Positions 28,490 through 40,485 of a stretch of 45,092 nt of DNA are shown here, piece after piece (position 1 is the stretch's first letter; each line of letters starts with the position of its first letter). Origin of the DNA: Lachnospiraceae bacterium (GTDB lineage Bacteria > Bacillota > Clostridia > Lachnospirales > Lachnospiraceae). Position numbers and translations under genes: made by a program. The stretch lies in assembly GCA_017436305.1 (NCBI GenBank), contig JAFSDJ010000015.1, forward strand, positions 1 to 45,092. The letters run 5' to 3'. Below the pieces are notes generated by a model. It had not been told where the DNA came from. It did no database searches and was given only the letters and a program-made list of their open reading frames with translations.

Positions 28490-28519
28490 GAATAAGGGGA
28501 AACATTTCCTGTTTCCCCT
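28490..28519 (-). terminator. terminator downstream of the P-II gene
   Basis: A perfect 8-bp stem GGGGAAAC/GTTTCCCC with a 7-nt loop; the minus strand continues TTATTC, a weak U-tract. It lies about 115 bp after the P-II stop. Confidence 0.65.
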
Positions 28520-28632
28520 CCTGTTTTGGTAAAGCTTTTCCGTATTCTCTTTTGAATCACTCCTCTATACTTACTATAATTTAAGTATATTGGTTTTGCC
28601 TTCTTTTATGAAATTAATCTTATTTTTTCTGT

Positions 28633-28977
28633 TCATTCCAATGCCTCATCTCCTATTTCACCAGTACGAATTTTTACTGCATTTTCAATATTTTTAATAA
28701 AGATTTTTCCATCTCCGAAGCTTCCCGTATTCAACTCAGAAAGAACTTTTTTAATGATTCCATCCACGATTTCATCTTTAACAACGGTACGGACACTTAA
28801 CTTTGGTAACAGATTTACTCCAACGTTATCATCTCTCGTATAAACTTGTCTTACTCCCTTTTGTTTTCCATATCCAAATATATTAGAAATCATGACACCA
28901 TTTGCTCCTTCACTGTCGAGTATTCTCTTCAAATTCTCCAGCTTTTCCGGCTTTATAATTATTTCCAACTCTTTCAT
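28633..28977 (-). CDS. P-II family nitrogen regulatory protein
   Basis: P-II proteins sense 2-oxoglutarate and ATP/ADP and control nitrogen uptake or metabolism by protein contact. The 114-residue length, the KQKG motif before the T-loop, NLLPKLSVRTVV, and the C-terminal signature TGSFGDGKIFI with RTGEIGDEAL identify the family. The T-loop carries Y46 but has N near position 51, where enteric GlnB has the uridylylated Tyr, so that modification is unlikely. No amtB is adjacent. Upstream in the same direction is an amino-acid permease, suggesting the permease or its catabolic operon is the partner. Confidence 0.92.
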   Translation of the reverse strand: MKELEIIIKPEKLENLKRILDSEGANGVMISNIFGYGKQKGVRQVYTRDDNVGVNLLPKLSVRTVVKDEIVDGIIKKVLSELNTGSFGDGKIFIKNIENAVKIRTGEIGDEALE

Positions 28978-29033
28978 AGAATCACACTCCTCGTATAATA
29001 ATTTTATAGACCTCTCATACAGAGGCTATAGAC

Positions 29034-29084
29034 TTATTTTTTATGATGTAGGTATTGGATGAATTGTTGGACATCCTTTTCCAT
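29034..29084 (-). pseudogene. possible relic N-terminus of a tyrosine recombinase
   Basis: A 16-codon reading frame, MEKDVQQFIQYLHHKK then stop, resembles the first residues of XerC/XerD-like integrases (an E-x-x-x-x-F-I-x-Y-L pattern). The rest of an integrase is absent. It lies between the candidate RNA and the P-II gene. The match is short and may be chance. Confidence 0.3.
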
Positions 29085-29121
29085 ACCCAAATAGTTAATA
29101 AGTTACTTTATTGTTATTACC

Positions 29122-29277
29122 AAGAAAGCTTGCAACCCTAATGCTACGCTAAGACTTATTGCACAAATGCTGAAACCCGGTATTTAGCCACCAGCAGGGT
29201 ATTTCTTACTAGTGAATACTCATAACGCAAGGGTCAGGTTGGCGTAGTGTTCTAGGATAAACCATGATTACTTTCTT
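29122..29277 (-). ncRNA. candidate structured RNA with pseudoknots
   Basis: This 363-bp gene-free interval has several mutually compatible pairings. The closing stem is AAGAAAG (29122-29128) with CTTTCTT (29271-29277). CTACGC (29144-29149) pairs with GCGTAG (29242-29247). TGCTG (29168-29172) pairs with CAGCA (29192-29196), crossing ACCC (29175-29178) with GGGT (29197-29200) as an H-type pseudoknot. CAACC/GGTTG (29133-29137 and 29237-29241) gives a second crossing pair. Strand is inferred from flanking genes. I cannot name the family; the raiA motif is one candidate to test. Confidence 0.5.
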
Positions 29278-29340
29278 TTTATTTCTGCACTTGATTTCAA
29301 TCAAGACTTTTTATAAAAATGGTTCCTGCCATTTTAACAC

Positions 29341-30759
29341 TTAGAATTCCTTATCACCTTCTGGTGTCTTCATCCATACCTTCTCTTTTGGCCATTTTAT
29401 AAAGAGCATGTAGAACCACAGCAGTAAACCTACTCCCATATAGCCTACAAATCCAATCCATGTTGCCTTTCCTATACCGATTGTACAGAACAACGCAATC
29501 ACTGCCATAATGATTAGTGATGCAACTTTTAACCATGCGGCACATTTATAAGGTCTTTCCCATTTCGGATGCCTTTTATCCGCAACCAGAGAAGAAATAG
29601 AAGTAATCACATAACAAAGTGCACAAGCAAATGCCATCAAGTCAAAAAATGCTGTAATAGACTGCATTGCAATAAATCCAATACTTACAACCAGAATTAA
29701 GATATTCGGCAAAGTAGGCTGGTTATATTTATTCGTATAAGAAAACGGCTTTGGTAAAAAGTTCTGCCGTCCCATTGCATAAATCATACGAACACCCGAA
29801 TACCAGAAACCCAATACAGACGTTCCTATCGGAAATACAACACCAACAATTCCCATTACCATTACGAATGGTGCAATTTTATCTCCAAAGCACTTTGTTA
29901 AAGCGCTAAAGGTAATAAACGGAGAGCAAGCACCATTATTTGTCAATTCTCCCCATGGCATAACTCCCGCCATACAGAAATAGAAAATGGTATAAATGGC
30001 GCCACAAGTAATAACAGAACCAAGAATGGCTTTTTTCTGATCCTTAATTGGGAAATCTCCCTCTTCTACCATAGCCGGTACTGTTTCAAATCCAAAATAC
30101 GGTGTAATCATAAAAGAACAACCTACAATCCATGCAATTCCAGTGGATGCAAAGCTACCACCATACTGCTTCATATTGCTACTGGTAAAGAAGCTTGTAA
30201 AATTAGAAAGACTCCAATGTCCACTAAATAGGAACATCAAAGAACAAACTAAAATACCTACAATACCTGCGAATAACATAAAAGACTGTACCTTACCTGC
30301 AACTACGTTTTTATACATACTCAAAATACACCATGCACACAATACAAGGGCACCCACGATTACAGCTGACGTACCGGTAAGATTTAAATTAAATTGGTAA
30401 TTCAGCCAATCAATAATTCCAAGCACACCTGCTGCCGGAACTGCAATCCATGCACACATAATCAGCCACGCCGACCAAAAGCCTGCATGCTTATTCAAAC
30501 CTACGGTGTTAAACACCAGACAGGAACCCGTGCTCGGCAACATAGTAGAATATTCTGCATACACAAACGCAGTGGGTAGTACCGCTATCGTCATTAAGGC
30601 AAATGCTAAAAAAGTTGCCGGACCTGTGTATGACATAAAAATGCCATCCCAGTAACACATAAATGTAAAAATTGCACCGGTTGCCATTGCATACACATAC
30701 ACCAGTTTCATGGATTTTGACAATACACTTGTTTTTTCTCTCATTACAATATTATCCAT
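29341..30759 (-). CDS. APC-superfamily amino-acid permease
   Basis: This 472-residue secondary transporter has about 12 membrane helices. The APC-type elements are the broken first helix (VYVYAMATGAIFTFMCYWDG), the GFETVPAMVEEGDFP segment after helix 6, and YAMGRQNFLPKPFS between helices 8 and 9. AAGGAGG precedes the ATG. It is the last protein-coding gene of the kinase/PLP-enzyme/SDR operon, and so probably imports that pathway's substrate, an amino acid or amine. Confidence 0.9.
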   Translation of the reverse strand: MDNIVMREKTSVLSKSMKLVYVYAMATGAIFTFMCYWDGIFMSYTGPATFLAFALMTIAVLPTAFVYAEYSTMLPSTGSCLVFNTVGLNKHAGFWSAWLIMCAWIAVPAAGVLGIIDWLNYQFNLNLTGTSAVIVGALVLCAWCILSMYKNVVAGKVQSFMLFAGIVGILVCSLMFLFSGHWSLSNFTSFFTSSNMKQYGGSFASTGIAWIVGCSFMITPYFGFETVPAMVEEGDFPIKDQKKAILGSVITCGAIYTIFYFCMAGVMPWGELTNNGACSPFITFSALTKCFGDKIAPFVMVMGIVGVVFPIGTSVLGFWYSGVRMIYAMGRQNFLPKPFSYTNKYNQPTLPNILILVVSIGFIAMQSITAFFDLMAFACALCYVITSISSLVADKRHPKWERPYKCAAWLKVASLIIMAVIALFCTIGIGKATWIGFVGYMGVGLLLWFYMLFIKWPKEKVWMKTPEGDKEF

Positions 30760-30837
30760 AATAGTTTCCTCCTTTTTTTCATAACGTTATATATTAAATA
30801 AAAATTCAATAGAATGAAATCCTATTGCATCATTCTT

Positions 30838-31833
30838 TTAGCCGAACAGTCTTAAATACCGTTCTGCCAATTCTATGGTTCCGTCCATCCAGCCCACACT
30901 CAGTTCCGCAACCGGTCCTGATTCCTGATGACTAGCAAGCCATGCTGTAAGCTGCAAACGTCGCATCATAATAAAAGTATCAATCTCTTCAAAATCCGTA
31001 TCTGTGAAAGGCAGCACCTTTCGATAACCATCCAGCCATGCATTAACAAACTTTGGGACAATTGGCTTTTCTTCAATAAAACTTAGAGCAGATGCTAAAT
31101 CATGTAAATGCCATCCAAAACCACAATCATCAAAATCAATTACTTTTATCTGTTCACCTTCTAGTAAAAGGTTTGCCAAACGCAAATCCGCATGAATTAG
31201 TCCATAGTTGTTTTCTGTTTTTCCATATCTTTCTAACCGTTTTTTTATGATTGCAGCTACTTTTTCTAACATAATCTGAGCTTCCGGTGTCATGTCTTTA
31301 AAATCCTGCCATCTGCCCCAAGCTGCATTTTCTCCAATAATAGTGTCATAATTCCACTCAATTCTTTTCAGTATATCTGTGCCATTCCATATTTCTGTCT
31401 GTCTATGAAGGTATGCTGTTGTCTCTCCAAGATAAGTAAATTGTTTCACCATGCGTGACTCATTATTTTCATCCGGAGCCTCTCCCGGTAAATATTCACA
31501 CATCACACAATAATAATCCTTTCCATCACTTCCCTTAACAACCTGTATATCTTCTCCATTCACTCCTTTAATTGGATTTGCCACTATTAGTGGTGTATAC
31601 TCATTAATTTGATTTAACCATCTCATTTCCGAATTCAATTCATCCAATGTATGGTAACCTGGTCTACTAATACGAAGCACTCCGTCTTTTTCACCAGTTT
31701 CTTTATTCTTTACCATATAGGTTGCATTTTCAGAAAGAACTATCAACTGAGATTCATCCTTATCCTGCCACCCATATTTTTCTAATGCATCTGTCGCAAG
31801 TTGATTAAATAATTCTGTATTTTCAAATGCCAT
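30838..31833 (-). CDS. APH-fold small-molecule kinase (hydroxylysine/amino-alcohol kinase-like)
   Basis: This 331-residue protein has the aminoglycoside-phosphotransferase fold. The catalytic loop is HADLRLANLLL (H214, D216, N221) and the metal site IDFDD (D233), both intact. Next to a class-III PLP enzyme, the pairing recalls hydroxylysine kinase with its phospho-lyase, and amino-alcohol kinases. I start at MAFENTEL because GGAGG lies 8 nt upstream. An upstream in-frame start would extend into the neighbouring gene without a ribosome binding site. Homoserine or choline kinase-like activities are alternatives. Confidence 0.8.
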   Translation of the reverse strand: MAFENTELFNQLATDALEKYGWQDKDESQLIVLSENATYMVKNKETGEKDGVLRISRPGYHTLDELNSEMRWLNQINEYTPLIVANPIKGVNGEDIQVVKGSDGKDYYCVMCEYLPGEAPDENNESRMVKQFTYLGETTAYLHRQTEIWNGTDILKRIEWNYDTIIGENAAWGRWQDFKDMTPEAQIMLEKVAAIIKKRLERYGKTENNYGLIHADLRLANLLLEGEQIKVIDFDDCGFGWHLHDLASALSFIEEKPIVPKFVNAWLDGYRKVLPFTDTDFEEIDTFIMMRRLQLTAWLASHQESGPVAELSVGWMDGTIELAERYLRLFG

Positions 31834-31857
31834 AACATCATCCTCCATTCTATAGAG

Positions 31858-31897
31858 CAAGGGGGTACAGCTACCCCTTTGTAGCCGTACCCCCTTG
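31858..31897. other. strong intercistronic hairpin
   Basis: Arms CAAGGGGGTAC and GTACCCCCTTG (11 bp, perfect), then a one-nt mismatch and GCTAC/GTAGC inside. It sits between the stop of the PLP-enzyme gene and the kinase ribosome binding site and has no U-tract. It more likely stabilises or processes the mRNA than ends it. Confidence 0.75.
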
Positions 31898-31915
31898 TAC
31901 CATATCTTTGTCACC

Positions 31916-33199
31916 TTAAGACTGTGCCAAGATATCTGCCTCTGCTTCTTTAATTCCTTTTGCCATTTTCTCAAGAAGTTCATTGCAATATTCCTTTGTT
32001 ACAAGAATACCCGGTTTAAACTGAAGAACACTTGGATCAAGCTGAGAATAGATTGCCCAGACACCATTCTCATATAAGTGCTGCATTACCGGAATAGCAC
32101 CTTCCTTTCCTGCAAACTCCAGTCCAAAAATAGTACCACATTGGCGAATTCCGGTAAAAGTCTCTGGATTCTCTTTTCTAATTTCATCCAGTCCTTTTCT
32201 CAAATAATCTGAAACAAAATCAACATTCTTTTTGGTTTCCGGTCTGTTCAAAATCTCAAATACCTTTAATGCACAGGCACATCCTAATTCAGAACCACCG
32301 AAGGTAGCCATATGAGCACTTCCATCCTGCGTCATCCAATAGGAAGCTTTTTCATTTAAGATGGCAGCTGAAATTGGATAGATACCACCAGAAAATCCTT
32401 TTGAAGTAACAATAATGTCTGGTGTCACACCGTATTTTGTGATTGCCCACATCTCACCACTTCGCAACAATCCTGTTTGCACCTCATCTGCAATATATAA
32501 GGTTCCATATTTTTCACATAACTTTTTAACCGCTGGCAAATACCCTTCTTTCGGCATTAAAAATCCATAAGTTGCCGGAATGGTTTCTAATATTGCAGCT
32601 GCAACATCTTCACCCTTTAATGCTTCTTCCATTGCTTCAATGTCATTGAAAGGGACTTTTACATACTCATCATTTCCCTTATCTGCCAGAAAGATTTTGG
32701 AATATCTATCATTTCCTGCAGCAACTGCAAGTCCGGTATGTCCATGATATGCATTCTGAATACATACTATTTTTTTTCTTTTGGTAGCAGAACGCGCACA
32801 CTTTAGCGCAAAATCCACAATTTCTCCACCACTAGATCCATAAATTACATGTTTCATTCCCTCTGGAGATGCTTTAATTACTGTTTCTGCCAAAGTCGCC
32901 TTTAGAGGTGAAGGAAAATGATGATTTCCTATATCGACATACTTAGTTGCCTCCACTAACGCATCTATCACCTCGGGATTCCTATGTCCTAAACTATATG
33001 TACCACCATTGATATGTACATCCATCAGCTTCTTTCCACCCATATCCCAGAAATAGTAACCTTCTCTTTTTCCAATCAACAGGTCAATTTTTAAATCCAG
33101 CCACTCTTTTGTTTTTCCGCTGTTCCAATGCTCTATTGATTTTTGGAACACCTCCTCTTTTGATAACTGAAATACTTCTTCACAGATTGATTTTGCCAT
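31916..33199 (-). CDS. class-III PLP-dependent aminotransferase or phospho-lyase
   Basis: This 427-residue fold-type I enzyme has ADEVQTGL (D238 contacts the PLP ring nitrogen) and TSKGFSGG with Schiff-base K267, plus the phosphate-binding GSSGGE (121-126). Class III includes ornithine/GABA transaminases and the amine-O-phosphate phospho-lyases. The adjacent APH-fold kinase favours a lyase acting on an O-phosphorylated amine, but sequence alone does not exclude a transaminase. The ATG of MAKSICEE has GAGGAG 9 nt upstream. An ATG three codons earlier would touch that site. Confidence 0.85.
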   Translation of the reverse strand: MAKSICEEVFQLSKEEVFQKSIEHWNSGKTKEWLDLKIDLLIGKREGYYFWDMGGKKLMDVHINGGTYSLGHRNPEVIDALVEATKYVDIGNHHFPSPLKATLAETVIKASPEGMKHVIYGSSGGEIVDFALKCARSATKRKKIVCIQNAYHGHTGLAVAAGNDRYSKIFLADKGNDEYVKVPFNDIEAMEEALKGEDVAAAILETIPATYGFLMPKEGYLPAVKKLCEKYGTLYIADEVQTGLLRSGEMWAITKYGVTPDIIVTSKGFSGGIYPISAAILNEKASYWMTQDGSAHMATFGGSELGCACALKVFEILNRPETKKNVDFVSDYLRKGLDEIRKENPETFTGIRQCGTIFGLEFAGKEGAIPVMQHLYENGVWAIYSQLDPSVLQFKPGILVTKEYCNELLEKMAKGIKEAEADILAQS

Positions 33200-33234
33200 A
33201 ATGTCCATCTCCTCTTCTTTTTTATATCACGAAA

Positions 33235-34293
33235 TCATTTATTTTTTTCGTATAGCTCTTCCAACATTTTCTGATATGACGTAGGGCAATACCCTGTTTT
33301 TTTCTTGAAAATCTTTGCAAAATATTCAGAATCCGAATATCCTACTGTGGATGCCACATCATATATCTTCATCCTGCTATCTCTTAAAAGAACTTTTGCT
33401 CTATCCACTTTCACTTCTGCCATGTAGTCAGTAAAGTTCATTCCTGTTGTTTTCTTAAAAATGTGGCTTACATAACTGGGATTTAAGTACACACCTTCTG
33501 CCACACTTTCTAAAGATAGTTTTTCATCTACATGCACTACCACATATTTGCCAATACGATAAACCAGCTTATCATCAATCATCTGGTATTTTACTACCAT
33601 CTTGCTTGCCTCTTGAAAACACCTTGCCCATTCCTTAATAATGTCTTCCTTTCTCATAAGCGAGAAACCAAATTTATAAGTAAAATCATTACGATAAAGA
33701 AACTTTTCAAGCCATGGTTTTCTATCAATTAAAATTTCATAGATGTGATTTTTTGCCTTATCTGCTATTACCTGACAGTTAATGGCATCTCTTTTCCAAT
33801 CCTCGTAAATCTGGTCTATCATATTCTGAATAATAATTTCTTCCTGACCACCTCCAAGGAATATGTTATCTATTAAAGCATCTATCTTCATTTGTAAATC
33901 ATTCACCACATAACCAAGTCCTATCATGTCATACACTCGCACTAGAGCTTCCTCCAGTTGCCTCGCATCCAATGGCTGTATCAAGTAGTCAAACGCAGCA
34001 TTTAAAAAAATTTTCCTTACTACTTCATACGACTTCTCATATCCAATCATGATAATTTTGATTCCCAGAAAAAGATTTGTAATTTGTTTTAATTTCTCTA
34101 TAGAAGAAACTTCATTTTGTTCCATAACCAGAAGAAAAATGTTTGGGCGCTTTGTATCTAAATAGGTATATATCTCATCTTCATCCTGAATCACTTCTAT
34201 CAATTCAAAATCATTCCGAATAGACCAAAAGGACATCGCTTTTATCTTTTCTGCCACATGTCCACTTTTATCATAAATGCCTACATATTGCAT
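33235..34293 (-). CDS. AraC-family regulator with degenerate receiver domain
   Basis: This 352-residue protein has an N-terminal CheY-like domain (1-125), a linker, and a C-terminal double HTH of the AraC family (about 255-350; SLESVAEGVYLNPSYVSHIFKK, then IYDVASTVGYSDSEYFAKIFKKKTG). In the receiver, the phospho-acceptor strand reads FLLVMEQNE where FLLDIxMP is expected, so the Asp is missing and the N-terminal acidic pair is reduced. It probably responds to a ligand or partner, since no histidine kinase is nearby. Its place inside the SDR operon suggests it controls that operon. Confidence 0.88.
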   Translation of the reverse strand: MQYVGIYDKSGHVAEKIKAMSFWSIRNDFELIEVIQDEDEIYTYLDTKRPNIFLLVMEQNEVSSIEKLKQITNLFLGIKIIMIGYEKSYEVVRKIFLNAAFDYLIQPLDARQLEEALVRVYDMIGLGYVVNDLQMKIDALIDNIFLGGGQEEIIIQNMIDQIYEDWKRDAINCQVIADKAKNHIYEILIDRKPWLEKFLYRNDFTYKFGFSLMRKEDIIKEWARCFQEASKMVVKYQMIDDKLVYRIGKYVVVHVDEKLSLESVAEGVYLNPSYVSHIFKKTTGMNFTDYMAEVKVDRAKVLLRDSRMKIYDVASTVGYSDSEYFAKIFKKKTGYCPTSYQKMLEELYEKNK

Positions 34294-34319
34294 CCCGTCA
34301 CCGCCCTATTTCAAATTCT

Positions 34320-35114
34320 TTACTGTCCCATCGATGTTGTTTCCGGAAGGGTACTTCCTCCATCAATTACAATCTGTGTTCCTGTAATGTAACTGGATTC
34401 TTCACATCCGAGAAATGCTGCCAGCTCTCCGATTTCCTCAGGGTCTGCAAGTCTTCCTAATGGAACTGCATCTGCTATGGCTTTTATTGCTCTTGATGGG
34501 TCTTCCGGGTCAGATTGCTTTGCCATGCCTTCTACCAGGGGTGTCATCACATACCCCGGACAAATCGCATTCACACGAATATTTTTATCTGCCACCTCTC
34601 TTGCCATTGCTTTTGTAAATCCAACCAATGCAGCTTTGGATGTAGCATATGCTACCTCTCCCGGATCTGCCACCATATCACCGGTAACAGAACTCATAAT
34701 AACAATTGCACCTCTCTTATGCTTCATCATACTTGGCAATACTGCCTTTGTGGTATTCCAGACGCCCTTAATATTTATATCAAAATGAAGGTCTCTGTTT
34801 TCAAAAGAATCGCTTTCCAGAAAATCCTCCAATACACATACCCCTGCATTATTCACAAGAACATCTACCGGTCCATAAGTCTCTTCCGCTGTCTGTATCA
34901 AATTCTGCACACTTGCAAAGTCGGATACATCTATCTGGACACCAATAGCCTCATACCCTTGCTGTTTTAACTGTTCTGCCAATTCCAACACCTTAGATCC
35001 CCTTGCAGCTAGTACACATTTAGCACCATACTTTGCATATACTTTAGCAATTCCTTCTCCAATTCCTTTAGAAGCTCCTGTAATGATTGCTACTTTTCCT
35101 TCTAACTTTCCCAT
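34320..35114 (-). CDS. ucpA: UcpA-like short-chain dehydrogenase
   Basis: This 264-residue NAD(P)-dependent SDR has the cofactor loop TGASKGIG (12-19), NNAG, the catalytic Ser in MSSVTGD and the YxxxK in YATSK. The segments MVADPGE, RVNAICPGYV and the tail TQIVIDGGSTLPET closely recall E. coli UcpA, whose physiological substrate is not settled. I start at MGKLEGK because AGGAG lies 8 nt upstream. It is the first gene of the operon, and in the proposed pathway it would reduce or oxidise the aldehyde or ketone released by the PLP enzyme. Confidence 0.88.
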   Translation of the reverse strand: MGKLEGKVAIITGASKGIGEGIAKVYAKYGAKCVLAARGSKVLELAEQLKQQGYEAIGVQIDVSDFASVQNLIQTAEETYGPVDVLVNNAGVCVLEDFLESDSFENRDLHFDINIKGVWNTTKAVLPSMMKHKRGAIVIMSSVTGDMVADPGEVAYATSKAALVGFTKAMAREVADKNIRVNAICPGYVMTPLVEGMAKQSDPEDPSRAIKAIADAVPLGRLADPEEIGELAAFLGCEESSYITGTQIVIDGGSTLPETTSMGQ

Positions 35115-35166
35115 ATGTTTCACTCCTTTTCTTTCCTGAATCATATTTGTAAAAGTTTTTGAAAAC

Positions 35167-35204
35167 AAAAAGAGACATGCACATTCAAAATGTTCACGCC
35201 TCTT
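35167..35204 (-). promoter_or_regulatory. attenuator-like hairpin in the ucpA leader
   Basis: The minus strand forms a 15-bp stem with one mismatch (AAGAG-GCGTG-A-ACATT with AATGT-G-CATGT-CTCTT, 3-nt loop), then TTTTTG and four more T. It lies directly after the predicted start of transcription and about 55 bp before the ucpA ATG, with no complete gene ahead of it to terminate. Confidence 0.65.
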
Positions 35205-35219
35205 TGCATCTCTGCAATT

Positions 35220-35247
35220 ATTATATCCTATTTTTTTCCAAAAACAA
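35220..35247 (-). promoter_or_regulatory. promoter of the ucpA operon
   Basis: -35 TTGTTT (35242-35247) and -10 TATAAT (35220-35225), spacer 16 bp, on the minus strand. The rest of the 325-bp gap (35115-35439) holds the attenuator hairpin, AT-rich DNA and the terminator of the hscC-like gene. Confidence 0.55.
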
Positions 35248-35388
35248 GGTTATTTCTTTAGGTTATACCCGATTATTTTTATTTTATACTGTATTTTCTT
35301 TAGATTATCAGTAATTCTACTTTTTTACTCCAAAGATACAAATCCGGAATTTACTCTTGCACATATTCTTTGATACTATAAACATAAG

Positions 35389-35422
35389 ATGAGCAGGAAA
35401 CCATTTTCGTTCTCCTGCTCAT
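35389..35422 (-). terminator. terminator after the hscC-like gene
   Basis: An inverted repeat ATGAGCAGGA / TCCTGCTCAT with a 14-nt loop lies 18 bp past the stop. The following minus-strand sequence CTTATGTTT is only partly T-rich. Confidence 0.6.
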
Positions 35423-35439
35423 TAGTTACCCTATGCTAA

Positions 35440-37131
35440 CTATAAATCTGACTCAATCTGGTCCAAAAATCTCCTAAACTTCTCTGCAGCTTCTTCAATT
35501 TTCACTTTATCCCTGCCGTCTAGCACCTTCTCAAATTCAGTAATGGCATGGTCAATGTGAACTCTGATATCACCGCAGGACTCTTCATACAAACGCTCAC
35601 CTCTGAATAAAAGCCGCTTGTTTACTTCTTCGTCTCTTGGCAGAATTTTAAGGTAGCTTAACTCCTCGAATCTCTTTTCAATCTGCTCTTTTGTAAGCGT
35701 ACAATCATCCTTCTGAATAATCAGCTTCTTTTCCTCACCTGTAGAAACAACCTTTACTACTACTTCCAAAATGGAATTTACATCATATGTATAAGTTACA
35801 ACTATGCTTTCTTCCCCTTCTTTTCCTTTCGGCACGGGCACGTTGATTTCACCTAAATACAGATTGTTTTTTGCATAACGGCTTTCTCCCTGTAAAACAG
35901 CTACCCGGATAGAAGTCTGGTCGTCGCTGGCAGTATATAAAGTTTCCTGTCTGCTAACGGGAATAACGGTATTTCTCTCGATAATAGGGCAGAAATGACC
36001 GCCCTCCTTTCTGTCCTTATCAAGGCTGATTACAACCTCAGTTCCAAGAGTGAACGGGCACACATCGGTTAAAACTACCTCTTTTATCATCTCGTTTCGT
36101 TCCTTCATGGCACCCTGCATAGCTGCACCGAGAGCAACAACTTCATCAGGATTTAAGGAAATATTGGGCAGTTTACCAAATAATTTTCCTACAAATTTAC
36201 GAATAATTGGAAGCTTAGTTGCGCCACCTACCAACACTACCTCATCAATCTGGGAAAGCTTTATTCCTGCATCCTTTAAGGTACGTTCAATAGGCTTCTG
36301 GATTTTTTCAAGCAGTGGCAGACATTCCACTCTGTATTTTTCTAAAGGCACGGAAAGCTCTACTGTTTCTCCATCAATGTTACACTGCATAAGGGAAGTA
36401 TTTCCATTGGAAAATCCCAGCTTGCAAAGCTCTGCCTGTTTTCTAATATGGGCCAGTGTTTTATCTGACAAACTGCTTTCATCCAATTCCTTTTCTTTTA
36501 TAAACATGTCATATAAAACTTTGGTAAAATCCTCGCCACCAAGGAAATTGTCCCCTGCAATGGCGCGAACCTCCATAATATTGTGATACAGCTCCAAAAT
36601 GGAAACGTCAAAGGTTCCACCGCCTAAGTCAAATACAAGAAAACGGGTGTTGGCTTCTCTTTGTCCGATTCCATAGGAAATAGCGGCAGCAGTAGGCTCA
36701 TTTACGATTCTTTCTACTTTTAAACCGGCCAACTCACCTGCTTTTTTGGTAGCGGTTCTCTGCTGGTCATTAAAATAAGCCGGAACACTAATAATCGCTT
36801 CCTCAACCGGCTGATTTAAATAAACCTCCGCATCCTCTTTTAAAGCACGAAGAATAAAGGACGCAATTTCCTCAGCCCGGTATTTTTTCCCATGCAAAAT
36901 AAATTCTTTGTTGGTTCCCATGCTTCTTTTAAATACATCAACTGTATCATTGCCGTATTTGATTTTTCTTTCTTTTGCAGTCTTTCCAATATAAATAGTC
37001 TGATTTTCATCCATGCTTACTACAGAAGGTGTCAAATGCTCCCCTAAGCGGTTAGGTATAATTTTGGCTTCTCCATTCTCATAATAAGCAATCAGACTGT
37101 TGGTTGTTCCCAGATCAATTCCTACTATCAT
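35440..37131 (-). CDS. hscC: HscC-type Hsp70 chaperone
   Basis: This 563-residue Hsp70 is about 50 residues shorter than a standard DnaK. The ATPase domain has GIDLGTTNSLIA, VPAYFND, FDLGGGTFDVS and VVLVGGATKLP. GDNFLGGEDF and LTDVCPFTLG resemble E. coli HscC. A truncated substrate-binding domain and a helical tail follow. I start at MIVGIDLG because AGGAGAG lies 5 nt upstream. It follows a TPR protein with a J-like N-terminus by about 60 bp. In E. coli, hscC also has a J-protein neighbour, so the two probably form a dedicated chaperone pair. Client proteins are unknown. Confidence 0.88.
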   Translation of the reverse strand: MIVGIDLGTTNSLIAYYENGEAKIIPNRLGEHLTPSVVSMDENQTIYIGKTAKERKIKYGNDTVDVFKRSMGTNKEFILHGKKYRAEEIASFILRALKEDAEVYLNQPVEEAIISVPAYFNDQQRTATKKAGELAGLKVERIVNEPTAAAISYGIGQREANTRFLVFDLGGGTFDVSILELYHNIMEVRAIAGDNFLGGEDFTKVLYDMFIKEKELDESSLSDKTLAHIRKQAELCKLGFSNGNTSLMQCNIDGETVELSVPLEKYRVECLPLLEKIQKPIERTLKDAGIKLSQIDEVVLVGGATKLPIIRKFVGKLFGKLPNISLNPDEVVALGAAMQGAMKERNEMIKEVVLTDVCPFTLGTEVVISLDKDRKEGGHFCPIIERNTVIPVSRQETLYTASDDQTSIRVAVLQGESRYAKNNLYLGEINVPVPKGKEGEESIVVTYTYDVNSILEVVVKVVSTGEEKKLIIQKDDCTLTKEQIEKRFEELSYLKILPRDEEVNKRLLFRGERLYEESCGDIRVHIDHAITEFEKVLDGRDKVKIEEAAEKFRRFLDQIESDL

Positions 37132-37190
37132 ATGCTCTCTCCTACATGCTTTGCTGTTCAAAACTTTTGCCACAATTCTATTGTTTTTTA

Positions 37191-40100
37191 CTACATCTTT
37201 GTTTTTTCTTTTACTCTGGTATAGGCAAACATATAATCCACATCATCCAGATTAGCTTCTAACATACTTCTATAACAAAGCTCTGCCTCTTCAAATCTGC
37301 CCATAATTTCTAATAAGAGACCTTTTACAAAAGCCGCTTCGTGACAGGAAATATCCTGACAATGACTGCAGGATTTACAAGCCAGTGCTTTTTCAGTATA
37401 ATCTAAGGCTTTCATATAGTCATCCTTTGCTAACTCTGCAATAGCTAAATAAGTATATTTTCTGGCCTCGCCATGAAGTACATCCATTTCTGCTGCTTCT
37501 TTTTTCAAATTCTCTATATATGGAATCAAATCTACATTGAAAATTGGTTTCTTCTTTCCTTCAGTTAGCATCATTTGACATCTTAAAAATACCAGATTTT
37601 TAGCATCGTTTGTTTCATTCTTACGTGCATGGCGTTCTAAGCTTTGATATTTCATTTTTGCCTGAAACATCTTCTTTTTCATTAAGAGTAAGTATACAGA
37701 CTGCTTTATAACATGAAATTCCGTGTCTGCCTGATCAGCACTTGCAGGACTATCTCCATACAACCTTTGAAGAGTTTTTTTCGCCTCCTCTAAGTTTCCT
37801 TCCAAAATGAGACAATCGGCCATATTTTCCCATGCAGTAATCCTGTTTTCGGGACCGGTTTTTGCAAATTCTGCATATTGTTTCATGGCATCTGCATAAT
37901 ATCCTCTTGCCATGTAAAGGTCTGCCAACCGCTTAATATCCTCCGGCTCCTTTACTATTTCTATACATTCCATTAAAACCTCTATGGCACGATCCCATCG
38001 TTTTACTCTTCTAAGTACCTGAACGTAAACACGATACTGCCAGGGCTGCATATTTTCTGTTCTCTTTTTAAAGGCTTCATCAAAATACTCCGCTGCTTTC
38101 TCATTATCTCCCTGCCATCTGTAAATATTTCCAATAAGGCAATAGGTGTTAATGTTAGCCGGATCTAACTCTATATTTTTCTCATAGTTAAGCCTTGCTT
38201 CCGTATATCGTTTCAGTTGCTCAAAGCACCATCCCTTACTTAAATAGCAGAATGCATCCGGCGCAATTTCAAGCTGCTTTGAGTAATACTCAATGGCTTT
38301 TTCGTACTCTGCCTGCTCCTCGTAAATTTCTCCAATTCGTCCATAGGCTTTCACATGGACATAATTTGGATTTTCCTCAATCACCTGTTTAAAGCAGGCA
38401 ACTGCCTGATCATATTCTTTTTTCTGCCAGCACATATGAGCCTTATAGATAATGGCTCTTATAAAGTGTGGATTTTTCTTAAGTGCTTTTTCAAGATAAA
38501 ATTCTGCTTCGTCATTTGACTTATTGCGTGCGTAAATTCTAGCTATTTCAAAGTACAATCTGTCTACAATATGGGCTTCAAAATCTTTTGTGGATTCCGC
38601 TTTAATGCTTAAATCCAGCAATGTTTTCAGCGCTTTCTCACCATCACCTTTTTCATTCTCAATCATGGCTTCCCACATTGTAATGCTGTCACTTTCAGCA
38701 CCATGCTCCTTTACAAAAGTAAGCACCTCCAAAGCCTCGTCGTAACGTTCCATCAAATAGAAGCAATCTGCTTTTTTGATGTAAAAGCTCAGATTGCTGG
38801 GGGAAACTCCAATACAGTAATCCCACTCTTCCTGTGAGTCTAAATAATAACCCAGCTCATAAAATGCTTCACCTCTAAAGGCATGACCTAGTGGAGAATG
38901 ACTGTCACATTCAAAAATTTTGTCACAGATTTCTATGACCTGATCATACATTCGCCTGTTAAAGTAGATTCTGGCCTTTTCCTCATAAACGTCTATAGTC
39001 TGATTACCTGTACCCAGTGCTTTGTCAAAAAATTTATCTGCTTCCTCATACTGTTTTAAACCTGCCAGAGTCTGAGCTGTGCAATGATATGCTGCACATA
39101 AGCGTTTCATTTCTTTTTTTCTCTTTTCGGTTCCGTCCGGCTCCAGCTTTTCTGTTATGGCCACCCACTGCAATAAGTAGGTGAGGGCTCTTTCATAATC
39201 TTCCTTGTACATATAATTACATCCAAGTAAATGTACATACTCTAAATGGTTTTCTTCATCAGGCTGAATGGACATAAGAAGCTCTAATGACTCCTCAAAT
39301 TTACTCTGCTGATAGTAAGTCCTTGCTAACTCTATGGCATTTTCCAGATTTTCCGGATTTTCTTCCCATCGTTGTTTATATAACTTTTCAATTTCTTCAA
39401 TACAATTTAAAATAGATTGTCCCAAATAATCATTTTTGTGAATATCATAAGCTTCATCATAGTACTTTTTAGCTTCTATAAAATCCTTTTGTCTGAAGCA
39501 GATATTACCCAAAGCTACCTTTACGCTATACAGATTTTCTGTGCCCTCAAGAATCTTCTCATAAAGCTCCTTCGCCTTATCAAATTCTTCTTTAGCGCAG
39601 TAAACCTCTGCCATGGAACGGCGTATTTCCTCATCTTCCGGCATTTTTTCCAATAAATTTTTTGCCAGATTTTCTGCCTCTTCTTTGCTCTCTGCCTCTT
39701 CTCTGGATAAAAGATATTTGATACGGAATACATCTATGTATGGATGATACAGCTTAAAGGCATCAATTTCCTCAAGTCTTTGACCAATCTCATCCATTTT
39801 TCCTTCTGCTAACAGATGGTATATTTCATAGCTTTTATAAAGGAATTCATCATAGTCGGTTCCGCCTTTGGATTCTATGTACTGTATATCAATATATTCT
39901 TTATTTTCAATATTCCCAACAATGCCTTGTTCCACATAATTTTCCGGAAAACTTTCGTATAATTCATCCTTATATTCTCTTAACAGAAATTTGTCGTCCA
40001 AAATCCTCCAGATTTTCTGTGGCAGATAATAATGGGACATAAAATAACAAAGCAGTTCGTCCCTTGCTTCTGTTTTCGTTTCCAAAGAAAAGCATACATC

Positions 40101-40412
40101 ATCTTCTAACAGCTCTTTCCATTTTTCTTCATTTCCACGAAGCTCAATATCCTGATAAAGTGTGTCTACTTTTTTCATCCATATGCCAACAGGTGTTTTT
40201 GGCTCTTCTTCCTGGTTAGCTTTTGCTGCTTCTTCTGGCGAAACATCCGGTTTATCTGCCTCTGCTACAGCCTCCTCGTATGCTCGTCTTAACTCCATAA
40301 ATCCCTGCTGGTTTTCTTCCGGGTTAACAAGGACTAACTTTTCACGATACGCATTTTTAATTAGCTCCTTGTCTTTTGTTTTCTCAATCCCCAATATTTC
40401 CCAAATATTCAT
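37191..40412 (-). CDS. giant TPR protein with degenerate J-like N-terminal domain
   Basis: This 1073-residue soluble protein starts at MNIWEILGIEK, with GGGAGG 6 nt upstream. Residues 1-52 match the J-domain pattern (WEILGI, IKNAYREKL, GFMELRRAYEEA), but the diagnostic HPD is NPE (30-32). About 200-980 are many TPR-type helical pairs (YEKAIEYYSKQLEIAPD, YTEARLNYEKNIELDP and others). A small Cys/His cluster (CKSCSHCQDISCHE) lies near the C-terminus and may bind metal. The downstream HscC-like Hsp70 gene makes it a candidate co-chaperone or client scaffold. Confidence 0.85.
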   Translation of the reverse strand: MNIWEILGIEKTKDKELIKNAYREKLVLVNPEENQQGFMELRRAYEEAVAEADKPDVSPEEAAKANQEEEPKTPVGIWMKKVDTLYQDIELRGNEEKWKELLEDDVCFSLETKTEARDELLCYFMSHYYLPQKIWRILDDKFLLREYKDELYESFPENYVEQGIVGNIENKEYIDIQYIESKGGTDYDEFLYKSYEIYHLLAEGKMDEIGQRLEEIDAFKLYHPYIDVFRIKYLLSREEAESKEEAENLAKNLLEKMPEDEEIRRSMAEVYCAKEEFDKAKELYEKILEGTENLYSVKVALGNICFRQKDFIEAKKYYDEAYDIHKNDYLGQSILNCIEEIEKLYKQRWEENPENLENAIELARTYYQQSKFEESLELLMSIQPDEENHLEYVHLLGCNYMYKEDYERALTYLLQWVAITEKLEPDGTEKRKKEMKRLCAAYHCTAQTLAGLKQYEEADKFFDKALGTGNQTIDVYEEKARIYFNRRMYDQVIEICDKIFECDSHSPLGHAFRGEAFYELGYYLDSQEEWDYCIGVSPSNLSFYIKKADCFYLMERYDEALEVLTFVKEHGAESDSITMWEAMIENEKGDGEKALKTLLDLSIKAESTKDFEAHIVDRLYFEIARIYARNKSNDEAEFYLEKALKKNPHFIRAIIYKAHMCWQKKEYDQAVACFKQVIEENPNYVHVKAYGRIGEIYEEQAEYEKAIEYYSKQLEIAPDAFCYLSKGWCFEQLKRYTEARLNYEKNIELDPANINTYCLIGNIYRWQGDNEKAAEYFDEAFKKRTENMQPWQYRVYVQVLRRVKRWDRAIEVLMECIEIVKEPEDIKRLADLYMARGYYADAMKQYAEFAKTGPENRITAWENMADCLILEGNLEEAKKTLQRLYGDSPASADQADTEFHVIKQSVYLLLMKKKMFQAKMKYQSLERHARKNETNDAKNLVFLRCQMMLTEGKKKPIFNVDLIPYIENLKKEAAEMDVLHGEARKYTYLAIAELAKDDYMKALDYTEKALACKSCSHCQDISCHEAAFVKGLLLEIMGRFEEAELCYRSMLEANLDDVDYMFAYTRVKEKTKM

Positions 40413-40485
40413 TATATGCCTCCCAATGCTTAACCTTGTGGTCAATCTATTGATATTTACTATTAGACAGACCTGTTATTTACCA

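Follow-up and report, generated by a model that had tools for sequence, protein, structure and literature searches.

A shell-free kinase and PLP enzyme operon in a Lachnospiraceae genome, a candidate nitrogen route from short amino alcohols

RMM/Aut loci, as described in the accessible parts of two reports (PMC4207490, PMC6620236), combine genes for a kinase, a class-III pyridoxal phosphate (PLP) enzyme, a short-chain dehydrogenase/reductase (SDR), a permease, and a regulator. The second report proposes the Aut name and an aminotransferase route, and its accessible text treats the microcompartment form alone. The class-III lyases documented before PbfA, itself an (R)-1-hydroxy-2-aminoethylphosphonate ammonia-lyase, were ethanolamine-phosphate phospho-lyase and one close relative only, according to the accessible part of a 2021 paper (PMC8154272). 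Here we analyze a gene set of the RMM/Aut kind in a 45,092-nucleotide stretch of DNA (hereafter, the window) from Lachnospiraceae bacterium (GenBank assembly GCA_017436305.1, contig JAFSDJ010000015.1, positions 1 to 45,092), a single contig from a 2.6 Mb genome whose completeness, 84.36%, applies to all searches of this genome reported below. The initial annotation took the locus for a new catabolic one; given that the same gene set is already described for RMM/Aut loci, we regard it instead as a shell-free variant of that known kind, with another PLP enzyme lineage. On balance, we lean towards the view that the operon uses a short amino alcohol, most likely 1-amino-2-propanol together with the ketone aminoacetone, as a nitrogen source. 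The literature searched, with most subscription papers outside its scope, yielded no description of a shell-free form with this PLP lineage, which is no proof of absence.

The gene unit and its recurrence

An intact APH-fold kinase adjoining a class-III PLP enzyme, with a permease, an SDR, and an AraC regulator alongside, had been claimed from the start and is borne out: five intact genes, all assigned by Pfam, occupy positions 29341-35114 of the minus strand in the order SDR, AraC regulator, PLP enzyme, kinase, permease, with intergenic gaps of 26, 26, 82, and 78 nt. Downstream of the permease, outside the region initially annotated, lies a P-II gene, a probable further member.

34320-35114, minus strand: UcpA-type SDR, 264 aa (Pfam adh_short_C2; NF006080; motifs)
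33235-34293, minus strand: regulator of the AraC family whose N-terminal stretch is receiver-like, 352 aa (Pfam HTH_18, 67.8 bits)
31916-33208, minus strand: class-III PLP enzyme ("Gln-type" clade), putative phospho-lyase for phosphorylated amino alcohols, 430 aa (Aminotran_3, 248 bits)
30838-31833, minus strand: small-molecule kinase of the APH fold, putative O-kinase for amino alcohols, 331 aa (Pfam APH, 81.6 bits)
29341-30759, minus strand: APC-family permease, 472 aa (Pfam AA_permease_2, 120 bits)
28633-28977, minus strand: P-II family signalling protein, probable unit member, 114 aa (Pfam P-II, 79 bits)

Two short peptide patterns, taken from the PLP enzyme and one relative, were used to scan a collection of 84,980 species, which identified 28 related loci (numbered here with the prefix L), a count that misses PLP relatives carrying neither pattern. 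Although these loci were found through the PLP enzyme alone, all 28 encode a kinase homologue on the strand of the PLP gene, at a distance of no more than 150 nt in 26 of them and of 1.6 kb and 2.7 kb in L032 and L033, respectively. Counted by bit-score thresholds (180 bits or more for the SDR) on contigs several of which end early, SDR homologues are present in 18 loci (the L029 copy lies 7.7 kb from the PLP gene, and the L026 copy is on the opposite strand), permease homologues in 13, AraC homologues in 12, and P-II homologues in 11 (L010-L013, L015, L016, L018-L021, and L027). The P-II gene stands behind the permease in seven of these 11 loci, behind the kinase in three in which no permease was found, and upstream of AraC in L027, and the SDR gene is placed after the permease, not at the operon head, in L018-L021, L023, L024, and L028. 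That the parts are kept while their order varies argues for one pathway, and the five genes very likely form a functional unit rather than a chance grouping. This recurrence, together with the kinase matches described below, supports the original proposal of a kinase and class-III PLP enzyme route for a hydroxylated amine, with the permease, SDR, and AraC regulator in the same unit.

The kinase-PLP unit is rare. Among 398 genomes of the phylum, a kinase search (E up to 1e-40) recovered the window's own genome alone, and a search with a PLP enzyme model (E up to 1e-80) recovered seven, namely, the window's own and six of one distant Bacillota genus; the PLP group of that genus, with two rows in our trees, offers no clue to its function. 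Among 60 relatives, there is one close PLP homologue (G013, 50% identity).

Several loci differ in architecture. In L037 (11248-13065), the kinase and the SDR are apparently fused in a single 605-aa frame, an SDR-like start is present at the end of the kinase frame in L009 (the G013 locus), and L024 (5232-11992) carries two tandem copies of kinase-permease-SDR after a single PLP gene. In the sister group L029-L037, to which the loci of Faecalicatena contorta (L029) and Ruminiclostridium sufflavum (L031) belong, the neighbours in some loci include iron-containing alcohol dehydrogenase (Fe-ADH), ArgD-like transaminase, amidohydrolase, amino-acid-type ABC, and cytidylate-kinase-like genes; this group probably uses another substrate, which may be an amino acid.

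The gene calls in the window call for some comment. The SDR, for which the UcpA-like label given initially is confirmed by 449.6 bits against NF006080 (cut-off 356), starts with the ATG at 35114, the limit set in the initial annotation, the listed open reading frame (ORF) extending 18 codons farther upstream, from a TTG; it contains the motifs TGASKGIG and YATSK. The kinase (motifs HADLRLAN and IDFDD) was assigned a corrected start at 31833, an ATG preceded by GGAGG; the start in the ORF list, 31983, falls within the PLP gene. The receiver-like stretch of the regulator scores 22.1 bits against Response_reg, under the Pfam cut-off of 30.2. The spacer between the permease and P-II genes (28978-29340) is 363 nt long in the window and about 49 nt in L010; the extra sequence is not matched by any Rfam family (28500-36000 searched, E up to 0.1) or, by blastn, in L010-L013.

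Lineages of the kinase and the PLP enzyme

The best match of the window kinase among solved structures is 6ef6 (chain 6ef6_A, 210 bits), followed by amicoumacin kinase (78 bits). We take 6ef6 to be the kinase that phosphorylates (S)-1-amino-2-propanol in the RMM microcompartment of M. smegmatis. The kinase encoded beside shell genes on plasmid pRHL2 of Rhodococcus jostii RHA1 also has 6ef6 as its top match (243.5 bits). In a tree of 39 kinases, built with no outgroup, a 100/100 split places the window kinase on the same side as those of RHA1, Moraxella, Acinetobacter, Chimaeribacter, Agrobacterium, and Pseudorhodobacter, and the kinases of P. aurescens TC1, S. fredii, and Pseudomonas MPC6 on the other side.

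The PLP enzyme retains the PLP lysine (K270) and belongs to a 36-member clade of its own (100/100 in the careful tree). Its most telling feature is Q396, which occupies the column of the transaminase Arg (GabT R398 and ArgD R377 of E. coli) and is Gln in all 36 rows of the clade. This column, in which GabT R398 presumably binds the substrate carboxylate, contains Arg in 9/9 transaminase-type rows (three E. coli enzymes and six ArgD-like or unassigned ones). As a background, 30 class-III rows were taken from relatives, of which 28 were usable once the window itself and L083 (wrong frame) were removed; these have Arg in 19 rows, Tyr, Gly, and Lys in one each, a gap in six, and Gln in none. By this residue pattern, Gln at the Arg position speaks against a 2-oxoglutarate transaminase, although another amine acceptor could still be used. 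An ordinary 2-oxoglutarate transaminase was accordingly set aside, on the Gln for Arg and the separate 100/100 clade.

The same column is occupied by Lys in 7/7 rows of another clade (100/100), which we denote Lys-type and which consists of the enzymes of TC1 (5g4i), RHA1, Moraxella, Acinetobacter, Agrobacterium, Chimaeribacter, and S. fredii; in an additional Moraxella row, the residue is His. The PLP enzyme of the TC1 plasmid matches 5g4i ("phospholyase" by title) with full identity and, next best, 6tor, an ethanolamine-phosphate phospho-lyase; 5g4i itself is, we assume, active on phosphoethanolamine. Where the window clade has the motif DIGNHHF, the 5g4i clade has T-RYL, and membership of the window enzyme in the Lys-type phospho-lyase clade was set aside, the two being separate clades with 100/100 each. 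In the window enzyme, H96 and H97 are both invariant across a set of 28 rows, although H97 is replaced in the rows of L038, L051, L053, L055, and L057.

The partnership between the two enzymes appears to have changed during evolution. The kinases with Gln-type PLP partners do not form a single clade, which is rejected with p-AU 3.2e-5, and the partner label requires two changes on the tree; in Pseudomonas MPC6, the kinase groups with those of TC1 and S. fredii and the PLP enzyme is Gln-type. PLP enzymes of either clade are therefore found next to kinases of either group, as would be expected if the two clades catalyzed the same reaction. We consider it probable that the pair comprises a kinase for small amino alcohols followed by a phospho-lyase.

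Other plasmids present the Gln-type gene in different company. On those of Phyllobacterium and Mesorhizobium (L038 7703-10260; L051 6703-9239), it stands beside a gene of the alkaline-phosphatase family, which in the Phyllobacterium copy is a Pfam phosphodiesterase, and an ABC importer, and the neighbouring annotations include no kinase, an arrangement that looks as if a phosphorylated amine were imported. In a Burkholderia plasmid record, ORFs for an APH-family protein and for an aldehyde dehydrogenase lie near a Gln-type PLP enzyme.

Candidate substrates and the fate of the aldehyde

The context of related loci points, by analogy, to a short amino alcohol as the substrate. In L023 (1599-11503), on a metagenome-assembled genome (MAG) titled Flavobacteriaceae that appears to be of termite-gut origin, the genes run ethanolamine permease (TIGR00908, 614.7 bits), unassigned ORF, EutB, PLP enzyme, kinase, permease, SDR, EutC, and in L022 (7121-13104) they run amino-acid-type permease, EutB, PLP enzyme, kinase, EutC, so that eutB and eutC are split by a PLP-kinase-permease-SDR cassette in the former and by a PLP-kinase cassette in the latter. 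On the Chimaeribacter plasmid, a gene annotated as ethanolamine permease is flanked by a kinase from the window's side of the split and a PLP gene; the Moraxella plasmid carries genes for an aldehyde dehydrogenase, two PLP enzymes, an APC permease, an SDR, a kinase, and an AraC regulator, and the P. aurescens TC1 plasmid those for a kinase, a PLP enzyme, a permease, an SDR, and an aldehyde dehydrogenase. The SDR of the Moraxella plasmid matches 6ci9/6ci8, presumably the RMM aminopropanol dehydrogenase, at 282 bits. An SDR beside the kinase would fit aminoacetone and aminopropanol better than ethanolamine; the window SDR being of the UcpA type, this step is proposed by analogy. For this SDR, reduction of aminoacetone seems at least as likely a role as the processing of the aldehyde product that was suggested initially. 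As the main substrate, aminopropanol/aminoacetone has, in our assessment, a somewhat better than even chance, and is likelier than ethanolamine or hydroxylysine.

From the genes observed, their conserved linkage, the grouping of the kinase, and the loss of the transaminase Arg, we infer the following route. The amine would be imported by the APC permease, aminoacetone and aminopropanol would be interconverted by the UcpA-type SDR, and the hydroxyl would be phosphorylated with ATP by the APH-fold kinase. The O-phospho-amine would then be bound by the PLP enzyme, with elimination of phosphate, and the enamine product would hydrolyze to ammonia and an aldehyde, propionaldehyde or, from ethanolamine, acetaldehyde. 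The operon would be controlled by the AraC regulator, and the P-II protein probably couples the operon or the permease to nitrogen status.

The host is probably a gut bacterium, given that close relatives of the PLP enzyme occur in Lachnospiraceae MAGs, with L011 coming from water-deer rectum. A microcompartment elsewhere in its genome was considered and set aside, there being no match to the shell family PF00936. Neither an ADH_N gene nor EutB was found in this genome, and Fe-ADH gave a single match; assembly gaps could conceal genes. In the genomes of ten relatives, Aldedh is matched in 10/10 and a frame of 860-900 aa is present in 5/10; the sole Aldedh frame of the L018 genome has 426 aa and is ProA-sized. 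With few aldehyde-processing genes in the window's genome, nitrogen rather than carbon is the likely gain from the pathway, and the P-II gene fits such a role.

Taken together, these considerations lead us to a broader proposal, made tentatively and with slightly less than even confidence: that the Gln-type enzymes make up a hitherto overlooked lineage of class-III PLP phospho-lyases, exchanged at least once with the known lineage beside amino-alcohol kinases, and that, in Lachnospiraceae and certain other bacteria, this lineage supports a nitrogen route from 1-amino-2-propanol/aminoacetone that is coupled to P-II and depends on neither a shell nor B12.

A number of observations weigh against the operon function and route inferred above. 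On the side of the PLP enzyme, the top solved match is a putrescine aminotransferase (179 bits). The quick tree (53 rows) sets E. coli PatA beside the window clade with support 77, the Gln-type and Lys-type clades being apart, and the careful tree (52 rows, the long-branched Moraxella row removed) joins the two clades at 39/11 only, so that the two trees differ on the nearest kin and, with such a value for sisterhood, we do not claim an independent origin. The placement among transaminases or phospho-lyases on which the initial annotation made its reading hinge is thus answered in part: the enzyme does not cluster with transaminases, having its own clade and no Arg, but its position beside either type received low support. 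The two rows of the distant Bacillota group (L055 and L057) also have Gln, and no APH kinase was detected among four ORFs scanned around L061. As for the kinase, the 30 kinases of the window's kind form a separate group (91/86) beside the RHA1 set in the outgroup-free tree, and the partner change depends, for one group, on a single locus, that of MPC6, among eight plasmid loci with a scored partner. The window SDR scores higher against 6qhe (201 bits) than against 6ci9 (136 bits) and is therefore not orthologous to the known aminopropanol dehydrogenase; nor is the TC1 SDR of that type, its best match being 2cfc (112 bits), with 6ci8/6ci9 not among the 60 matches listed. The permease scores 72.6 bits on the ethanolamine-permease model, below the cut-off of 381.75; the Aldedh complement of the window's genome is one 422-aa ProA-sized frame, probably ProA, with no CoA-acylating aldehyde dehydrogenase found; and L022 and L023 are near relatives and hence count as one. 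Finally, according to the accessible text of PMC6620236, no kinase gene is present in the Aut cluster of Proteobacteria.

The strongest alternative, which we nevertheless regard as unlikely, is that ethanolamine is the substrate of the same kinase and phospho-lyase chemistry, with the SDR reducing acetaldehyde to ethanol. The position of the L023 cassette, downstream of an ethanolamine permease gene and separating eutB from eutC, the phospholyase title of 5g4i together with the activity we assume for it, and the usefulness of a linked reductase in a genome with one Fe-ADH and neither ADH_N nor EutB detected all agree with it. However, another ethanolamine route, complete with permease, would be superfluous beside eutBC, the window kinase groups with the kinase of an aminopropanol locus, and the window permease falls under the ethanolamine-permease cut-off.

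More doubtful still is a PLP enzyme acting as the transaminase proposed for AutA, converting aminopropanol to lactaldehyde, with the kinase active elsewhere in the route. An aminotransferase step is indeed what the accessible text on the Aut loci proposes (PMC6620236), the closest solved structures are transaminases, and PatA is placed, weakly, beside the clade in the quick tree; yet the co-substrate Arg is lost throughout the clade and a kinase accompanies the enzyme at every one of the 28 loci, although an acceptor of the pyruvate type could be used.

Hydroxylysine, named initially as a plausible substrate, or another hydroxylated amino acid, which the kinase would convert to an O-phosphate and the PLP enzyme to a semialdehyde, is not favored either, and we rate it as improbable. 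In its support, animals offer what we take to be a precedent, and the amino-acid-type ABC and ArgD-like genes near some of the L029-L037 loci suggest that this sister group, at least, may use an amino acid. Yet the window kinase scores only 33.7 bits on PRK06149, the NCBIfam model of a fused kinase-aminotransferase, compared with 210 bits on 6ef6 (scores obtained by different methods, with the animal enzymes outside the comparison), related loci lie in a eut context, and there is no ArgD-like gene in the window unit. A drug-modifying APH, grouped incidentally with the other genes, is very improbable and was set aside, the APH fold and the match to amicoumacin kinase being outweighed by the score on 6ef6 and by the constant PLP partner.

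Elsewhere in the window (35440-40445), a gene for a divergent Hsp70 protein (443 bits on Pfam HSP70, under the NCBIfam DnaK cut-offs) adjoins a 1084-aa repeat-rich frame with a start judged by eye to be J-domain-like.

Relation to known systems

If the proposed function is correct, a further lineage of class-III lyases would correct the "aminotransferase" label on a group of genes, many of them from Lachnospiraceae, and the aminopropanol route could, it would seem, dispense with a microcompartment and perhaps with aldehyde oxidation as well. It would also provide a B12-independent means of drawing nitrogen from amino alcohols, and the P-II gene beside the permease would allow nitrogen control of an APC transporter to be put to the test.

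Like the window enzyme, PbfA is a class-III PLP enzyme, and it acts as a lyase, but identification of the window enzyme as PbfA was set aside (172 bits on NF049939, cut-off 525), and no phosphonate gene was found in the window unit. The Eut route likewise leads from an amino alcohol to an aldehyde and ammonia, as proposed for the window, and its genes share a cluster with the cassette in L022 and L023; the window route, however, would use ATP and PLP rather than coenzyme B12, in a genome in which EutB was not found. The phospho-lyases 5g4i and 6tor are, like the window enzyme, class-III PLP enzymes, with a kinase neighbour in TC1 and, in the 5g4i clade, no transaminase Arg, whereas the window enzyme falls in a clade separate from that of 5g4i, with Gln instead of Lys and DIGNHHF instead of T-RYL. 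Also close are the RMM/Aaum/Aut loci for 1-amino-2-propanol (aminoacetone) in Rhodococcus and Mycobacterium, which have a kinase from the window's group and, like the window, one regulator, an SDR, a permease of the amino-acid type, and a PLP enzyme of class III. The window differs from them in belonging to a genome in which neither shell proteins nor a CoA-acylating aldehyde dehydrogenase were found, in having a Gln-type PLP enzyme where that of RHA1 is Lys-type, and in its UcpA-type SDR, its AraC regulator in place of GntR, and its linked P-II gene.

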